Below the pieces are notes generated by a model. The model was not told the DNA's origin, did no database searches, and saw nothing but the letters and a program-made list of their open reading frames with translations. Shown here in pieces: positions 3,122 to 10,141 of a stretch of DNA of 54,123 bases. Origin of the DNA: a virus; IMG/VR virus record IMGVR_UViG_3300035698_004593, positions 1 through 54,123 of that record; one strand, written 5' to 3'. Positions within the stretch are counted from its first letter, which is position 1, and each line of letters opens with the position of its first letter. The position numbers and the translations under genes were made by a program.

Positions 3122-3505
3122 ATGACCAATGGAAACTGGATTGACGGAACAGGCGACATTGTGACAGGCGACACGATCAGATTCACCGAGGCAGTTTATG
3201 GCGGTTCGTTTCGCAAGCCCAAATTTCTTGGCGACCGCACTATCATAGCGCATGTAGACAAGGATAGTTACGGAGCCGAAAAACAACAGCACACATTTTC
3301 GATCACAGTGCTTGAGTGCGAAGGATACGAGCCAATTGCTGTTGGAAAAAAGACGCGCCGAAAAGGGCGGAATATTTATCGCAACGGCACGGAGCGTCAG
3401 TTATGGGAGGATGAATCAGAGCGCGGGGTTGAAGCCGATTGTAAGCACGCGCGCGGTGACTTTGCTCGACACGAGCGGGCCTGTAAACTGGGGCTGGTGA
3501 CATGA
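3122..3505 (+). CDS. Hypothetical protein
   Basis: A 127-aa soluble protein with a GTGDIVTGDTIRF segment near the N terminus that suggests a small beta-barrel, and a charged C-terminal half with Cys and His. I do not recognise a family. The start at 3122 is preceded by GGAGGG at about 8 bases. It ends 4 bases inside the next ORF. The gene sits downstream of the terminator at 2979-3009, so it needs its own promoter. Confidence 0.6.
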   Translation: MTNGNWIDGTGDIVTGDTIRFTEAVYGGSFRKPKFLGDRTIIAHVDKDSYGAEKQQHTFSITVLECEGYEPIAVGKKTRRKGRNIYRNGTERQLWEDESERGVEADCKHARGDFARHERACKLGLVT

Positions 3506-3675
3506 GCAAAGACAGAAAAAAGATGGGGCGACCTCGAATGTATGAGGCCGCCATGCAGAAACGCATGGTCTATCTTGCGCCTGAGCACGTGACCGAAGCG
3601 GAACGGGTTGGGGGCACGGTAGCGAAAGGTATCCGGCGCGTCCTAGAAATGTCTAGGGATCGGGCGCAGGACTAA
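3502..3675 (+). CDS. Small putative DNA-binding protein (ribbon-helix-helix-like)
   Basis: A 57-aa basic protein: a Lys/Arg-rich N terminus with GRPR, then a short strand (KRMVYL) followed by two predicted helices. This is the general layout of Arc/CopG ribbon-helix-helix repressors. It overlaps the previous gene by 4 bases (ATGA). Its stop codon abuts the stop of the convergent integrase at 3676. It may regulate integration genes or act as an excision factor; neither is shown by the sequence. Confidence 0.5.
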   Translation: MSKDRKKMGRPRMYEAAMQKRMVYLAPEHVTEAERVGGTVAKGIRRVLEMSRDRAQD

Positions 3676-4722
3676 TCACTCTACCGCGTTCACGTCATCG
3701 GCGCTCGTGGTGACGTGGACATAGCCCTCTGTGGTCCCGATCCCCGCATGACCTAGCAGCGATTGAATCTTGACCAGCGGGACCCCCGCCTGGGCGAGCC
3801 GTGACGCGAACGTGTGGCGCAAGGTGTGGAGCGTTGCGCCTTTGATATTGGCGTTGCGGCATATATTCGAGAACAGCCCCGCCGCCCAAAACCTGTACCC
3901 ATCGCCTACTCGAGGATTGTCCGGGGCGATGACGTGTGAATCACCCTGCTCCCTGAATTCTTTGGCCAGAGGTAATAGTCTCTTGTGGACCGGGATAACC
4001 CTATCCTTGCCGCTCTTTGGGTTCCAGCCTGGTTCAGCACGGACAACAATCTCGTAGCCATCGGCCCCAACGCGGCGAAACCAGTCCCAGCGCATAGCGT
4101 CAATCTCGCCATAGCGCAGACCGGCGTATAGCCCTAGCAAGACAATGCGATGTGCGTCTGTTGAATGATACTTGGCCTCTTCGACAAGCCTATCCACTTC
4201 GGCCTTCTCGAGGATGCGATGTTCGCTGGCAACCACATTCAGCTTCGTGATTTTCGAGAATGGCCGGTAGTTAACCAGGTCTTCTCTGAACGCCCATCCG
4301 CACACGCCGGCCAACTGTGTGACATATTGGTTCACGGTCGCCGCCTTCAGTCCATTGTATAGCAGCACCCGCCGAAACTCAGTGATATGGCCGCGCGTGA
4401 TATCCGATACGGGAATGTCGGCAAACGCCGTCCATTGGCGGACAACGTTCTCGCGCCCTCGGATGGTGCGCTGTCCGGCGTTGGGGACTAGAACGCACCA
4501 GGACTCATACAGGTCCGCCATAGTCGGCCCACAGCCCCTCAGCGCACGTTGCTCTGCTTCGCGGCGCATATCAACCACGATACGCTCTGCTAGGGGCTTT
4601 GACGTGACCGGGCGCCCGTGGGAATCCTTGAGCGTTATCTGGCTGCGCTTCCCGTCCTCGACAACATCCGCTTGATACGATTTGCGGTCAGGTCGTTTCT
4701 TGACTAGGCTTATTCTACTCAT
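3676..4722 (-). CDS. int: Tyrosine-family site-specific integrase
   Basis: A 348-aa phage integrase that catalyses recombination between attP and attB. An N-terminal arm-binding region (about 1-65) is followed by a SAM-like core-binding domain (66-165) and the catalytic domain (166-348). Visible catalytic residues are Arg203 (GLRYGE), Lys239, His299-x-x-Arg302 (HTLRH), His325 (LLGHAG) and nucleophile Tyr334 (TEGYVHV); the set is complete. It is the last gene of the leftward operon and starts within the stop of the upstream coiled-coil gene (ATGA overlap, 4719-4722), with GGAGGG as ribosome site. An attP core could not be identified without host sequence. Confidence 0.95.
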   Translation of the reverse strand: MSRISLVKKRPDRKSYQADVVEDGKRSQITLKDSHGRPVTSKPLAERIVVDMRREAEQRALRGCGPTMADLYESWCVLVPNAGQRTIRGRENVVRQWTAFADIPVSDITRGHITEFRRVLLYNGLKAATVNQYVTQLAGVCGWAFREDLVNYRPFSKITKLNVVASEHRILEKAEVDRLVEEAKYHSTDAHRIVLLGLYAGLRYGEIDAMRWDWFRRVGADGYEIVVRAEPGWNPKSGKDRVIPVHKRLLPLAKEFREQGDSHVIAPDNPRVGDGYRFWAAGLFSNICRNANIKGATLHTLRHTFASRLAQAGVPLVKIQSLLGHAGIGTTEGYVHVTTSADDVNAVE

Positions 4723-5039
4723 CCGGTCCCTCCTTTGGCTTTTCGCGCCCAGTTATTGGCTTCCACCACAAGCGTCTTCAGTTCCCCAACCTTTATTTTG
4801 CATTCGTCATTCCGCGCCGTTATGTCTGCGAGTTCAACTTCAAGTCTTGACACTCGACTCTGTAATTGGGCATAGTTGCTCGTTTTGAGAAACTCGACAT
4901 AGGATTCCAGTCCGGCATTCTCTGCCTCCAGCTCGGCGTTCTCTTCCTTCAACTCGGCATTCTCCTCCTTCAACTCCGCAATCTGCTTGTCTTTCTCGTT
5001 GATTATGTCTAGCAGGTTATCGTGGTGTTCGTCTACCAT
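4719..5039 (-). CDS. Coiled-coil hypothetical protein
   Basis: A 106-aa protein dominated by a long heptad coiled coil with repeated ELKEENAEL-type units (residues about 14-75). No catalytic motif is present. It is translationally coupled to integrase. It shares the Glu/Asn/Leu heptad style with the genes at 5052-5585 and 6097-6432, so these leftward genes may be relatives or may hetero-oligomerise. The function is unknown. Confidence 0.65.
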   Translation of the reverse strand: MVDEHHDNLLDIINEKDKQIAELKEENAELKEENAELEAENAGLESYVEFLKTSNYAQLQSRVSRLEVELADITARNDECKIKVGELKTLVVEANNWARKAKGGTG

Positions 5040-5051
5040 TTTCCTGTCCTT

Positions 5052-5585
5052 TCAGCCGTCCCACCCAGGGCGCAGCGCGTCGAGAATCAGCGCCAAGACT
5101 ATCCCCTCGTGCCAGTCCAAGTCTTGCTGTTTATCAAACAAGTCTTTGACAAGTACAAACGCCTCTTCGTTCTCCTCCTTCAGCTCCGCGTTCTCTGCCT
5201 CGAGCGCGGCGATGCGCGACCTCAAGCGATTATTTGCGGCTAAAATTGCATCATAATTATACGACAGCGCTTCATTCTGCGCGAGAAAATTAGCCTCTCT
5301 GATGCGAAATTTATCGTGTTGACGCTTAATGTCTTGCAGACATTCCCTGTGTGCGGCGTTCTTAACCTTCAATGTGGCGATGCGCTTGTCTTTAACTTCG
5401 ATGACTGTCCACACATTCGGTTCCCAATTTTCAGGGCACGGGCACGGGTCACCATCATTCGGTAGTTCGCCCCATTTCGCAGCACACGTCTGGCTCTCCT
5501 CGTTAGTGCGGTAGTTTGTGGCGTTGGCCCAACAGAGACGGCACGTCTCACAAACTCTTTCAATGCCTTTGTATTCATCAGTCAT
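5052..5585 (-). CDS. Cys-rich N-terminus plus coiled-coil protein
   Basis: A 177-aa protein. The N-terminal 50 residues contain paired cysteines (CETCRLC, then Cys and CPCP) that look metal-binding. The rest is a long coiled coil with AALEAENAELKEENEEA, matching the neighbour at 4719-5039. I chose the Met at 5585, which has a purine-rich AAAGAAA upstream and overlaps the end of the gene at 5578-5751; the frame is open further upstream but without a ribosome site. I recognise no family. Confidence 0.65.
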   Translation of the reverse strand: MTDEYKGIERVCETCRLCWANATNYRTNEESQTCAAKWGELPNDGDPCPCPENWEPNVWTVIEVKDKRIATLKVKNAAHRECLQDIKRQHDKFRIREANFLAQNEALSYNYDAILAANNRLRSRIAALEAENAELKEENEEAFVLVKDLFDKQQDLDWHEGIVLALILDALRPGWDG

Positions 5586-5751
5586 TTTCTTTCTCCGTTT
5601 CTTTCCATCTTTCACAAGCGGAACTAGCAGCACATACAAACGTCTTGTGCTTGCTGCAATAAAGCTCTCTTACAGCAGGCTTTGTTTCTGAATATTTACA
5701 TTCCCAGCAGGACATTGCTTTCCAATCTGGCATGGCCGCGAAGTCGTCCAT
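5578..5751 (-). CDS. Small Cys-rich protein
   Basis: A 57-aa ORF with CWEC near the N terminus and later Cys-Ser-Lys-His and Cys residues, a possible zinc-binding knuckle. It has a good ribosome site (AGGAGAAGGAAT before the ATG) and overlaps the start of the next leftward gene by 8 bases. The repeated hairpin lies 22 bases upstream of its start (5774-5792), as for the other hairpin-tagged genes of this operon. Confidence 0.55.
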   Translation of the reverse strand: MDDFAAMPDWKAMSCWECKYSETKPAVRELYCSKHKTFVCAASSACERWKETEKEND

Positions 5752-5773
5752 ATTCCTTCTCCTCTTGTTTCCA

Positions 5774-5792
5774 GATTCGCCCGTTGCAAATC
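5774..5792 (-). promoter_or_regulatory. Leader hairpin repeat, copy 1
   Basis: In mRNA sense this reads GATTTGC-AACGG-GCGAATC: a 7-bp stem with one G-U pair and a 5-nt loop. It sits in the leader of the gene starting at 5751. Copies 1 and 4 have GATTTGC where copies 2 and 3 have GATTCGC; the change keeps pairing as G-U, which supports an RNA role. Confidence 0.65.
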
Positions 5793-5797
5793 CGGGG

Positions 5798-6040
5798 TTA
5801 CTCTGCTTTCAGAGCATTAGCCAGCCGATCTATCATGCCGAACACAAGCTCTTTCAAGACACGGTTTTCGCACCGGGAGCTTCTTTCTTTCTCATCACGC
5901 AGCTCGCTTAAGGCCTCATCTCTCTCCCGAAGCAAATAAAGGCGATTCGCGTCCACTGCTTTTATCAGATCGACAATATCTTCATTGTCCCCCTCGAATT
6001 CACATATTCTCTCAAGCGCCTCTTCTATGCTCATGCCCAT
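5798..6040 (-). CDS. Small acidic helical protein
   Basis: An 80-aa, highly charged, helix-forming protein (Glu/Arg-rich, ending in a helix about LKELVFGMIDRLANALKAE). No family is recognised. A second Met two residues in could be the real start. The hairpin repeat copy 2 (6067-6085) is 26 bases upstream. Confidence 0.6.
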   Translation of the reverse strand: MGMSIEEALERICEFEGDNEDIVDLIKAVDANRLYLLRERDEALSELRDEKERSSRCENRVLKELVFGMIDRLANALKAE

Positions 6041-6066
6041 CGTTTATTTCCTCCGTTTCGTTTCCA

Positions 6067-6085
6067 GATTCGCCCGTTGCGAATC
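6067..6085 (-). promoter_or_regulatory. Leader hairpin repeat, copy 2
   Basis: GATTCGC-AACGG-GCGAATC in mRNA sense: perfect 7-bp stem, 5-nt loop. It lies between the genes ending at 6097 and starting at 6040. Confidence 0.65.
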
Positions 6086-6096
6086 CGGTGGCAAAC

Positions 6097-6432
6097 TTAG
6101 TCGTCGGCCCGGTATGCTGTCTCTGCGATACAACCCTGGCACTCCCCGTATTCATCAAGCATATCGCTTGACGACGGCTTTCCACAGCCAGTACATGGCA
6201 TGTCTTCGGCCAGCTCGCCCAACTCGGCTATCCGTTGCTTGAGTGCGGCGATTTCGTCATCGCGATCAAGAATTGTATCGAGTGCGACATCTAGCTCCGC
6301 GCCATCCTTCTTCAACTCCGCGACCTCTGCCTCCAGCGCGGCGACGCGTTTCCTGAACGCTATGTTATCCTCCCACAACGTAGTTTTTGGTGGTTTTGGC
6401 GCTTGTTTTGTAAATACCGGTACTGCCTTCAT
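6097..6432 (-). CDS. Coiled-coil protein with C-terminal zinc-ribbon-like motif
   Basis: A 111-aa protein. The middle is a coiled coil (VAALEAEVAELKKDGAEL and a second heptad stretch). The C-terminal 35 residues hold CTGC and, later, CQGC separated by about 20 residues, similar to DksA/TraR-type or other C4 zinc fingers, though too short to assign. Hairpin copy 3 precedes its ribosome site. Confidence 0.6.
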   Translation of the reverse strand: MKAVPVFTKQAPKPPKTTLWEDNIAFRKRVAALEAEVAELKKDGAELDVALDTILDRDDEIAALKQRIAELGELAEDMPCTGCGKPSSSDMLDEYGECQGCIAETAYRADD

Positions 6433-6453
6433 TTCTCTTTCCCTTCGTTCCCA

Positions 6454-6472
6454 GATTCGCCCGTTGCGAATC
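6454..6472 (-). promoter_or_regulatory. Leader hairpin repeat, copy 3
   Basis: Perfect copy GATTCGC-AACGG-GCGAATC. A partial second copy (6475-6488) lies directly next to it. The flanking 20 bases, up to the ATG, are nearly identical to copy 4, including the ribosome site. Confidence 0.65.
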
Positions 6473-6489
6473 TACCCGTTGCGAATTCG

Positions 6490-6603
6490 TTAAAACTCAA
6501 GTCGCGCCGTGAAGTCTCTGACCCACGCATTCCATTTGTGAGTCCCCTTGATAAACAGCGCCCGCCTAATTGCCCCGATGTATCTACTCGGTATTAGCTT
6601 CAT
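6490..6603 (-). CDS. Small basic protein, first gene of the leftward operon
   Basis: A 37-aa basic ORF rich in Arg, Lys and Trp. I place the start at 6603, downstream of hairpin copy 4 and its ribosome site, because an upstream start at 6684 would lie before the predicted transcription start of the leftward promoter. The function is unknown; a small DNA-binding role such as an excisionase would fit size and charge but is not shown. Confidence 0.5.
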   Translation of the reverse strand: MKLIPSRYIGAIRRALFIKGTHKWNAWVRDFTARLEF

Positions 6604-6624
6604 TTCTCTTTCCCTTCGTTCCCA

Positions 6625-6643
6625 GATTCGCCCGTTGCAAATC
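6625..6643 (-). promoter_or_regulatory. Leader hairpin repeat, copy 4
   Basis: Copy with G-U wobble (GATTTGC). It is the first structure in the leftward transcript, starting only a few bases after the predicted transcription start near 6649. Confidence 0.65.
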
Positions 6644-6655
6644 TGTTGCACCCTA

Positions 6656-6684
6656 AGTGTAGCATACTTGACGCTGTATGTCAA
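6656..6684 (-). promoter_or_regulatory. Leftward sigma-70 promoter (early-left operon)
   Basis: On the minus strand TTGACA (6684-6679), 17-bp spacer, TACACT (6661-6656). It drives the hairpin-tagged small genes and integrase. Confidence 0.8.
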
Positions 6685-6694
6685 GTCTTTTTTT

Positions 6695-6892: not shown

Positions 6893-7756
6893 GTGAAAGA
6901 ACTTAGTCTATTCTCAGGCGCAGGCGGCGGCTTGCTAGGCACACATCACTTACTTGGATGGAGGACGTTAGGTTATGTCGAATTCAACACCTACTGCCAA
7001 CGAGTCATCGCGGCAAGAATCAGAGACGGGCTGCTCGACGAAGCCCCAATATACGGCGATATCCGAGCATTCGTCAGTGATGGGTACGCCGCAAGCTATC
7101 GAGGCATGGTTGACGTCGTGTCAGGGGGGTTCCCCTGCCAGCCATTCTCCTGTGCCGGAAACCAGCACGGAGCCGAAGACCCAAGAAACATGTGGCCCGC
7201 AACGCTTGAAGTCATCCGCTTGGTACGACCCCGATACGCATTCTTGGAGAACGTTTCAGGCTTGCTTAGTAGTGGATACTTTGGAACCATTCTCGGAGAC
7301 TTGGCCGAAAGCGGGTATGATTGCAGATGGAGAATTTTATCGGCAGCCGAAGTGGGAGCGAACCATCTCAGAAAAAGGCTCTGGCTTGTGGCCTACACCG
7401 GAGGCAAACGAGAGGGCCGTATACCCTCGCTGGATGAAGACGCGAAAGAACGGACAACAAGTAGAGCCAAACCTTGCGGGTGCAGTTCAGGAGAACTGGC
7501 CAACGCCAAAGGCGAGAGATCACAGATCGCTAGGCGGTGTGTCAGAGAAGGCGCGACATACGCCAGATTTGCCGACTCAAGTTGGTGGCAAACTGAACCC
7601 GACGTGGGTCGAGTGGTTGATGGGATGGCCGATAGGGTGGACAGACTTAAGGCCATTGGAAATGGACAAGTTCCGCTCGTGGCTGCGACAGCATGGCGGC
7701 TGTTGACTGAGGATATGTTCGCCACGCCCGCGCCTGCGCAGCTAGAAATGCCTTGA
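6893..7756 (+). CDS. DNA cytosine-5 methyltransferase
   Basis: A 287-aa C5 methyltransferase that transfers a methyl group from SAM to cytosine. Visible motifs: motif I LSLFSGAGGG (residues 4-13), motif IV PCQPFS with catalytic Cys82, motif VI ENV (119-121), and near the C terminus the motif X region with GNGQVP. The target-recognition stretch between is short, as in many phage enzymes. The start is GTG at 6893 after AAGGAG. No cognate restriction enzyme is nearby, so protection from host restriction is the likely role. An entire second open frame (6975-7706) lies inside it. The stop codon overlaps the -35 of the next promoter. Confidence 0.93.
   Translation: MKELSLFSGAGGGLLGTHHLLGWRTLGYVEFNTYCQRVIAARIRDGLLDEAPIYGDIRAFVSDGYAASYRGMVDVVSGGFPCQPFSCAGNQHGAEDPRNMWPATLEVIRLVRPRYAFLENVSGLLSSGYFGTILGDLAESGYDCRWRILSAAEVGANHLRKRLWLVAYTGGKREGRIPSLDEDAKERTTSRAKPCGCSSGELANAKGERSQIARRCVREGATYARFADSSWWQTEPDVGRVVDGMADRVDRLKAIGNGQVPLVAATAWRLLTEDMFATPAPAQLEMP
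6975..7706 (+). CDS. Overlapping gene inside the methyltransferase (alternative frame)
   Basis: A 243-aa open frame in a different phase from the methyltransferase. It has a strong ribosome site (GGAGGA, 6960-6965) 9 bases before its ATG. Its product is rich in Trp-Pro-Thr-Pro motifs (LWPTPEA, NWPTPKARD) and ends with LNPTWVEWLMGWPIGWTDL. From memory, this ending and the WPTP pattern recur in phage proteins annotated as hypothetical or as methyltransferase parts. The segment coding WVEWLMGWPIGW is the same DNA that codes the EPDVGRVVDG motif of the methyltransferase, so both frames look conserved. Function unknown. It could instead be a conserved shadow with no translation. Confidence 0.5.
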   Translation: MSNSTPTANESSRQESETGCSTKPQYTAISEHSSVMGTPQAIEAWLTSCQGGSPASHSPVPETSTEPKTQETCGPQRLKSSAWYDPDTHSWRTFQACLVVDTLEPFSETWPKAGMIADGEFYRQPKWERTISEKGSGLWPTPEANERAVYPRWMKTRKNGQQVEPNLAGAVQENWPTPKARDHRSLGGVSEKARHTPDLPTQVGGKLNPTWVEWLMGWPIGWTDLRPLEMDKFRSWLRQHGGC

Positions 7757-7824: not shown

Positions 7825-8844
7825 ATGATTAAAATAATTGGGATAAAGTGCAAGGGCTCGTTTTATGTGACTCAGTTTGATCAACGGTCAAACTATACTG
7901 AGTATAGCTCCGTTAAACACTTACTGTTCGACGGCAACATTCCACTACTTACGTTCCACAAGAAGTGGTGTTATGTTGGAAAAGAGCCTACTCTAATTCA
8001 GAAGACTGTAAGCCAGCCCAAGATCAATCACAGATATGAGCTTCTCGATAACACAATGGAATCGGAACGGACACCATTGGTCTTTGAAAGGGAAGCTGTT
8101 GCGCAATACGACGACGACGAATCCGACTGGTATTGGAAGCAAGAGTTCAGGATGTACAAGTCTCTCTACAAATTGGTTTCGGATTCACAGCCGGATGTGT
8201 TAGAAGCGGTTGAGTTTGAGTATGAGACAATCTTGGAGGCCGAGAGGATGCCCCTTGAGGTTGCCCCGTTTGCACATAAAATTGGATTTGGAGACAGTTA
8301 CGACAGAAAAACTAGAGCGCTGTGCGACGACGACGTACATCATCAATTGTTGGACCAGATACTATTCCCACAAATAATGTTGCCGCTGAGGCCAAGCAAA
8401 CTAACCTCAGCGCACTCCTACGAAGTTGTAAGGCAGTACGTCAAGAAACATCTTGACGGTCGGTATGCCGAGATAACCAGCGATTATGACTTCTGTTTTA
8501 CGGTGAAAAAAACCATTCCCCTGAGCGAAACAGAATATTTTACAGTTGACCTCAACGCTTGGCACAATGTCTTCTCTAAGAGAAAACGGCGACCCAAGCT
8601 CGAAAAGAGGTTTCGCAAATCACGCGAACAGATATGCTTTGAAATGGCTCCTAAGCCATATCAGAGTTACCCTGTTATCCAAGGGTTTAGGGGTGATAAT
8701 CACGAGGATTTGAAGGCGAATATGGACCGCTATTGCGAAGAGTTGATCGCGTTCATAAATACGCCTGTCGTGGATTGTAAACACTGTAAGGGGGCAGGCG
8801 TGGTTCTCGATGCCATGTACCCACTGCCCGATGTAGGCGAATAA
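7825..8844 (+). CDS. Hypothetical protein
   Basis: A 339-aa mostly soluble protein of unknown family. Acidic and aromatic residues are spread throughout. The only small motif is CKHCKGAG near the C terminus (about residue 320), a CxxC knuckle like one half of a zinc ribbon. It has a strong ribosome site (AAGGAGAGG) and its own cassette promoter. The preceding stop and the following leader both belong to cassette sequence, so this gene behaves as an inserted single-gene unit. Confidence 0.6.
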   Translation: MIKIIGIKCKGSFYVTQFDQRSNYTEYSSVKHLLFDGNIPLLTFHKKWCYVGKEPTLIQKTVSQPKINHRYELLDNTMESERTPLVFEREAVAQYDDDESDWYWKQEFRMYKSLYKLVSDSQPDVLEAVEFEYETILEAERMPLEVAPFAHKIGFGDSYDRKTRALCDDDVHHQLLDQILFPQIMLPLRPSKLTSAHSYEVVRQYVKKHLDGRYAEITSDYDFCFTVKKTIPLSETEYFTVDLNAWHNVFSKRKRRPKLEKRFRKSREQICFEMAPKPYQSYPVIQGFRGDNHEDLKANMDRYCEELIAFINTPVVDCKHCKGAGVVLDAMYPLPDVGE

Positions 8845-8872
8845 CTGGTGACAACCGAAGGAGGATACGACA

Positions 8873-9619
8873 ATGCCGTATTACAAAGCAGTCCGACTAG
8901 ACCGAACATCGCACTACGACAAAAAAACCAAGTGGCGCGTGGGCAGCATCGTGAAGCCTGACAGGGTGGATGGGCCTGAGGTAGGCGTGTGCGGGCACGG
9001 GATACACTGTTCGCCAACGTTGCTCGACGCCGTCGGTTGGCAAGCCGGGCCGTCGCGGTATTATGAGGTGGAGCCGCTGAATGCCCTTGAGATTATTGCC
9101 CATGACACACGCAAAGCACGATGTTCACGAGTTCGAGTCTTGCGGTGGCTGTCAAAAGCCGAGCAGGACAACATCGCAGGATTCAAGTTGTGGGAAGTGA
9201 ACCACCCAATCAATCCTCTGGGGCTTAAGCCCCGATTGAAAAACACGGCAAAGCTGCAAAAGTTGTTGGAACAATGGATCAGCGTGTGGGGCCCCTGTAG
9301 TGCCAGCGTGTGGGACAGCATGGGGGCCAGCGTGTGGGACGACAGCGTGAGGGTCAGCGTGTGGGACAACGTGAGGGTCAGCGTGTGGGACAACGTGAGG
9401 GTCAGCGTGTGGGCCATGGGGGCCATGGAGGCCAGCGTGGATGCTTATATCGGCGGCTTGTTTCCTGGTATCACGAACTGGAAATATATAGACGGCCCCG
9501 ATCCGTGGCGTCCGTTGCTTACGCTCTGGTATGCAGGATACGTGCCGTCGTTTGACGGAACAACTTGGCGGCTGCACGCAGGGCCAAAAGCGGACGTGGT
9601 TCTGGAATGGACACCATAG
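8873..9619 (+). CDS. Octapeptide-repeat protein (SVWDNVRV repeats)
   Basis: A 248-aa protein. The N-terminal 110 residues form a globular domain (Cys, His and Trp present) similar in style to phage DUF7666-like proteins, from memory. Then follow six units starting SVW (nucleotides 9281, 9305, 9329, 9356, 9380, 9404; five are 24 or 27 bases long), such as SVWDNVRV. Such octad repeats may make a small beta-helix or solenoid. The C-terminal 55 residues are globular and Trp-rich. Its leader copies the cassette leader (ACTGGTGACAACCGAAGGAGG) but there is no promoter in front, so it is likely cotranscribed with the gene at 7825. Confidence 0.65.
   Translation: MPYYKAVRLDRTSHYDKKTKWRVGSIVKPDRVDGPEVGVCGHGIHCSPTLLDAVGWQAGPSRYYEVEPLNALEIIAHDTRKARCSRVRVLRWLSKAEQDNIAGFKLWEVNHPINPLGLKPRLKNTAKLQKLLEQWISVWGPCSASVWDSMGASVWDDSVRVSVWDNVRVSVWDNVRVSVWAMGAMEASVDAYIGGLFPGITNWKYIDGPDPWRPLLTLWYAGYVPSFDGTTWRLHAGPKADVVLEWTP
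9281..9413 (+). repeat. In-frame 24-bp tandem repeats
   Basis: Six copies of AGCGTGTGGG spaced by 24, 24, 27, 24 and 24 bases, encoding the SVW octapeptide repeats. Two adjacent units are identical, so recent slippage or recombination is likely. Confidence 0.9.
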
Positions 9620-10061: not shown

Positions 10062-10141
10062 CTAGAAATGACTTGACGCGCTAGGGGATATGTGATACCA
10101 TGTTCTTAGGCGATAAACTGGTGACAACCAAAAAGGAGGAT
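10062..10141 (+). repeat. Promoter/leader cassette, copy C
   Basis: Starts inside the stop codon region of the preceding gene (CTAGAAATG), with promoter 10073-10101 and leader ACTGGTGACAACCAAAAAGGAGG. Confidence 0.7.
10073..10101 (+). promoter_or_regulatory. Cassette promoter C
   Basis: TTGACG, 17-bp spacer identical to that of promoter B, TACCAT (10096-10101). Confidence 0.75.

Follow-up and report, generated by a model that had tools for sequence, protein, structure and literature searches.

The window, by which we mean the whole 54,123-nt (54-kb) stretch of viral DNA analysed, contains a leftward operon of small genes that ends in a tyrosine integrase gene and in which four copies of one hairpin are set among the first genes (Table 1). 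An exact 127-nt repeat was found at the window ends, and the window is thus probably the complete phage genome. From the spacing of the promoter elements, transcription of the operon is predicted to start near position 6649. It is uncertain whether the 37-codon ORF that comes first is a real gene. The consensus scan detected no promoters at the three internal hairpin copies, and no leftward terminator-like sites were found within the operon. An inverted repeat (CTTGAC-N7-GTCAAG, 6667-6685) lies over the -35 element of the leftward promoter and may serve as an operator; the neighbourhood contains no gene recognisable as that of a repressor.

Table 1. Features of the leftward operon in the direction of transcription (positions in the window)
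Feature	Position	Strand	Remarks
Predicted leftward promoter	6656..6684	-	TTGACA, 17 nt, TACACT (extended -10); consensus scan 10/12
Hairpin copy 4	6625..6643	-	9-bp stem 6623-6645, U-G at pair 3; 21 nt before ATG 6603
37-codon ORF, first in operon	6490..6603	-	No family match
Partial second repeat of 5' arm and loop, GAATTCGCAACGGG	6475..6489	-	Beside copy 3; repeat family D4
Hairpin copy 3	6454..6472	-	9 pairs of 10-pair scheme; 21 nt before ATG 6432
111-aa protein	6097..6432	-	Coiled coil and C-terminal Cys pairs
Hairpin copy 2	6067..6085	-	10-bp stem 6064-6088; 26 nt before ATG 6040
80-aa predicted coiled-coil-like protein	5798..6040	-	
Hairpin copy 1	5774..5792	-	10-bp stem 5771-5795, U-G at pair 3; 22 nt before ATG 5751
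57-aa Cys-rich protein	5578..5751	-	No family match
RBS leader of 177-aa gene, without hairpin	5586..5607	-	Inside 57-aa gene
177-aa Cys-containing coiled-coil protein	5052..5585	-	8-nt overlap with 57-aa gene; without hairpin
106-aa coiled-coil protein	4719..5039	-	Starts 12 nt past previous stop; without hairpin
Tyrosine integrase	3676..4722	-	PF00589, E 2.9e-20; 4-nt overlap with previous gene; without hairpin

An earlier note, made from the letters of this DNA, had described a 19-nt element at 5774, 6067, 6454 and 6625 (copies 1 to 4). A search of the whole 54-kb window allowing up to three mismatches returned exactly these four matches, confirming the description, and no fifth copy, and a separate search of the phage's own genome gave the same result; all four lie on the minus strand, which is the strand of the leftward operon. 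The chance expectation was 0.03 copies, and four copies were obtained in none of 100 shuffles. Given that the window probably represents the complete genome, four is probably the full number of copies. The element has the form GATTCGC-N5-GCGAATC, an inner stem of 7 bp closed by the loop AACGG, which is followed by a G in all copies. Folding of the four leaders gave the hairpin in every case (-13.6 to -19.7 kcal/mol, z -2.5 to -3.95; pairing probability 0.86-1.0) and refined the full stem from the 7 bp previously noted to 9-10 bp, with ten pairs in copies 1 and 2 and nine of ten in copies 3 and 4. A near-invariant 26-nt block, GATTYGCAACGGGCGAATCTGGRAAC, spans the hairpin and runs on through CTGGRAAC. 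The palindromic 7-bp arms are perfect in two copies, and copies 1 and 4 carry the C-to-T change described earlier, which gives a G-U pair in the leftward mRNA. Copy 3 has an additional partial repeat beside it (Table 1). The flanking sequence already seen to be conserved in copies 3 and 4 was found to reach into the first codons, with 93% identity over 56 nt.

Comparison of the copies revealed that six of the ten stem pairs never vary, whereas three vary in the 5' arm only and are always paired (C-G/U-G, A-U/G-U and C-G/U-G); the outermost pair is kept in two copies. Counting each pair in each copy, 38 of 40 are paired on the mRNA strand compared with 33 of 40 on the other strand. No two-sided covariation was detected in the stem across the four copies. 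The restriction of changes to the 5' arm, all of them to G-U, favours a hairpin that acts as RNA of the leftward transcript, although three changes are few: were both outcomes equally likely for each transition, the probability would be about 1 in 8. Variable columns numbered two of 26 in the hairpin block compared with 13 of 16 in the adjoining RBS (Fisher p 1.9e-6). Because copies 3 and 4 were duplicated together with the RBS and the first codons and yet the block is the better conserved part, this pattern of sequence conservation suggests a constraint on the hairpin; local gene conversion or a young hairpin unit are alternative sources of such conservation. That successive genes of one operon share an RNA-compatible leader hairpin is well supported.

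The position of the hairpin is closely linked to translation starts. As proposed previously, each copy stands just upstream of the ribosome site of a small gene, 21-26 nt before four successive ATGs, the first of which belongs only to the uncertain 37-codon ORF. When four sites were placed at random in the operon, four different starts were never served in this way in 200,000 trials. Copy 4 has no gene upstream, showing that the hairpin goes with starts rather than stops. The three internal copies occupy intergenic gaps of 57, 56 and 46 nt, and every operon gap with such room (46-57 nt) holds one hairpin. The gaps before the 177-aa, 106-aa and integrase genes are -8, 12 and -4 nt, so that these genes lack the hairpin because there is no intergenic room for it. 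The earlier statement that the later genes lack the element thus holds for the hairpin but not for the leader as a whole, as the 177-aa gene keeps the same RBS leader. Aligned without gaps and in register, this leader shares 17 of its 22 nucleotides with the leader of copy 1, a match that is equalled nowhere else on the two strands, and a covariance model likewise selected it (E 0.047). Five genes therefore have a start leader in common, and the hairpin is missing from the shared leader only where the leader sits inside the preceding gene.

The rightward region beyond the promoter has repeats of its own. Between 6828 and 11166 (+), six near-identical promoter cassettes (CTTGAC..TGTGATACCAT) stand ahead of successive early genes, several of them preceded by a repeated gene 3' end (PAPAQLEMP type) and followed by a repeated leader (CTGG.GACAACC..AGGAG), and there are duplicated genes at 9.7-11.1 kb. 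Two rightward leaders (8831-8863 and 10104-10136, +), with GGCGAAT(AA)CTGG or GGCGATAAACTGG, resemble the leftward 3' arm plus CTGG. In the form GGCGAAT..CTGG.RAC..GGAGG (at 8845 and 10118), the score of the best pair was reached in 0 of 400 shuffles, but equal scores occur elsewhere in the genome; rightward and leftward leaders are perhaps of common ancestry, a statistically weak relationship. The same region contains a cytosine methyltransferase gene (6893-7756; phrog_363, E 4.4e-64) just before a clear homologue of the Gabija anti-defence protein Gad1 (7825-8844, +; PF25705, E 8.6e-78; 36% identity to SPbeta-group phages), and the two are likely to be an early anti-defence pair. The methyltransferase frame overlaps a 243-codon frame on the same strand (6975-7706), which matches different phage families, phrog_1008 (E 8e-29) and phrog_26627 (E 1.6e-15), and both are possibly true overlapping genes. 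A short tandem repeat array that encodes a repeated VSVWDN-like motif (9276-9425, +) lies inside a 248-aa ORF (8873-9619).

What might such a hairpin do? Our best explanation, a tentative one held at somewhat less than even confidence, is that it serves as a 5' boundary or stabiliser of each cistron and also separates initiation from the preceding gene. The leader would be a cassette whose upstream half is the hairpin, a stem-loop of 9-10 bp with the loop AACGG, and whose downstream half consists of CUGGRAAC followed by a ribosome site rich in purines. This cassette would have been copied ahead of genes of one leftward operon, and the hairpin would work in the leftward mRNA. The stem would stand just beyond the edge of the initiating ribosome, leaving the Shine-Dalgarno (SD) site open, and would mark and protect the 5' side of each cistron. 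For the first gene it would lie right at the 5' terminus of the primary transcript, where copy 4 begins about 4 nt after a +1 that is predicted rather than mapped, and for the internal genes between the stop codon and the next ribosome site. In these places it would delay decay that depends on the 5' end and make initiation independent of the preceding gene, whereas the genes further down, packed without a gap, would be dependent on translational coupling. The promoter, the transcription start and the stabilising or insulating function are all what we infer.

mRNAs are known to be stabilised by hairpins located at their 5' ends or close to them, and the 5' stabilising stem-loops of the ompA, papA and aprE type are likewise followed by an open ribosome site (PMC3997798), although the same stem-loop is here repeated at three internal positions too. 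By folding, the SD was about equally accessible with and without the stem, and slightly less so with it in copy 3; the hairpin is thus not a simple SD switch, and masking of the SD was ruled out on these grounds. Several observations speak against a stabiliser: a purely structural role needs no invariant loop and 3' arm, no compensatory change was found on both sides of the stem, and the internal hairpins would be 5'-terminal only if the mRNA were cut just upstream. Moreover, the copies are possibly young, in which case their conservation says little.

The main rival, possible if somewhat unlikely, is a regulator site: translation of the four genes would be jointly repressed or activated by a protein of the phage or host that recognises the AACGG loop and the 3' arm. 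This protein might be a Cys-rich operon product acting on itself, since small Cys-rich proteins are encoded in the leftward operon. Consistent with recognition by a protein, the loop, inner stem, 3' arm and CTGG are invariant in all four copies (one 5'-arm C/T aside) whereas the RBS has diverged, variation is confined to the 5' arm with pairing kept, and the site adjoins the ribosome footprint. However, family searches recognised no RNA-binding domain among the operon proteins, the loop is by inspection without the GGA (CsrA) motif, and young duplicates could appear just as conserved. As the hairpin covers neither SD nor start, repression would have to be steric. The earlier note had suggested a shared RNA site for one regulator; the shared, RNA-compatible leader hairpin stands, but the regulator gains no candidate RNA-binding protein, and the about equal SD accessibility and lack of two-sided covariation do not speak for it. 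We regard as unlikely the more specific proposal that the phage's own RNA-binding protein would recognise the AACGG hairpin as a previously undescribed operator and co-ordinate translation of the small early gene block. Multi-gene translational operators of phages include the T4 RegA targets, the MS2 coat operator and Mu Com/mom. The hairpin resembles these in being the same RNA signal near several early-gene starts, which one protein could read, but they overlap the SD or start whereas it lies upstream of the SD.

The hairpin could also be a passive by-product without a function of its own, its leaders having been duplicated with gene starts as the operon expanded, which we consider distinctly unlikely. 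Copies 3 and 4 do share their sequence into the coding start, coiled-coil segments were also duplicated (the 111-aa and 177-aa genes have 87.5% DNA identity over 40 nt) and duplicated cassettes of promoter and leader stand ahead of rightward genes as well. Against this, the hairpin block is much better conserved than the adjoining RBS, and all three variable stem pairs that stay paired do so on the mRNA strand.

Less probable still, and quite improbable in our judgement, is a DNA-level site, in which the near-palindrome would be bound by a dimeric DNA-binding protein as an operator or stoperator. The perfect arms of two copies would suit such a site, the authors of the ESAS study favour DNA binding for their inverted repeats (PMC3203893), and a small basic ORF (3502-3675) has by eye only the look of a ribbon-helix-helix protein, with no Pfam or PHROG match. 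However, the other two copies break the palindrome by a change that RNA pairing tolerates (G-U) but that disturbs the symmetry of the DNA, the invariant sequence is asymmetric in that it continues only 3' of the hairpin, and the internal copies have no promoter.

We give very little credence to the hairpins as signals, recurring through the operon, for antitermination (nut/put-like) or another aspect of transcription elongation. The boxB element of lambdoid nut sites, part of an early phage transcript, is a small hairpin whose loop has 5 nt, and the hairpin here is boxB-like in these respects. Unlike nut sites, its four copies are tied to starts, with no boxA in the leaders or immediately before them (the nearest one-mismatch match, at 6552-6560, is inside the 37-codon ORF), and the operon offers no leftward terminator-like site to read through.

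Other identities were rejected: a lambdoid nut site, for want of a boxA upstream of the hairpin; an intrinsic terminator or attenuator, as the stem is followed by CUGGRAAC with no U run and none of the four copies appears in the terminator listing; a CsrA/RsmA site, as AACGG followed by G, read by eye, has no GGA in the loop; an N4-type hairpin promoter, as there is no giant virion RNA polymerase (the longest stop-free stretch is 1176 codons); and a REP-like 3' stabiliser tied to stops, given the position of copy 4 and a start distance that is tighter than the stop distance. Rfam gave no family at gathering score and, with E up to 1, no match at any of the hairpins.

We also looked for the hairpin in other genomes. 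Hairpin patterns gave in IMG/VR either no match or one inside an integrase-like coding region. The GTDB genomes contained 10 single matches compared with 7-8 expected by chance, as estimated from pattern length; eight were well inside long ORFs, one (L013) was near the start of such an ORF, and one (L015), within short overlapping ORFs only, may be non-coding. The hairpin did not recur within its locus for any of the 10. A distant blastn search of GenBank phages with one leader gave weak RBS-like matches only, and an IMG/VR search that reaches close relatives only found none for the 111-aa protein, integrase, Gad1 homologue, capsid candidate or portal. Judged by these sequence searches of IMG/VR, GTDB genomes and GenBank phages, the hairpin repeat is apparently unique to this phage.

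The closest comparison in layout is with the SAS/ESAS of Cluster K mycobacteriophages (PMC3203893; 2025 survey PMC12699233). These repeats accompany the starts of certain non-structural genes, roughly half of them have an inverted repeat immediately before them, and they have no assigned function. The present repeat is likewise short and tied to translation starts, in all four copies, but it differs in having only four copies, all in one operon, and arms of 7-10 nt rather than the imperfect 17-bp arms of ESAS. According to their authors, the ESAS inverted-repeat differences do not support RNA pairing (PMC3203893), whereas the changes in the hairpin here keep it. The 13-bp SAS, GGGATAGGAGCCC, had two matches in the window with up to two mismatches compared with 0.83 expected, neither of them in the leftward leaders. 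The leader cassette shares the layout of SAS/ESAS without belonging to them. It represents an SAS/ESAS-like layout in an unrelated phage, with a repeat that does keep RNA pairing, and, as a leader module of ~50 nt that is easily moved into reporters, it would make the role of start-associated repeats directly testable.
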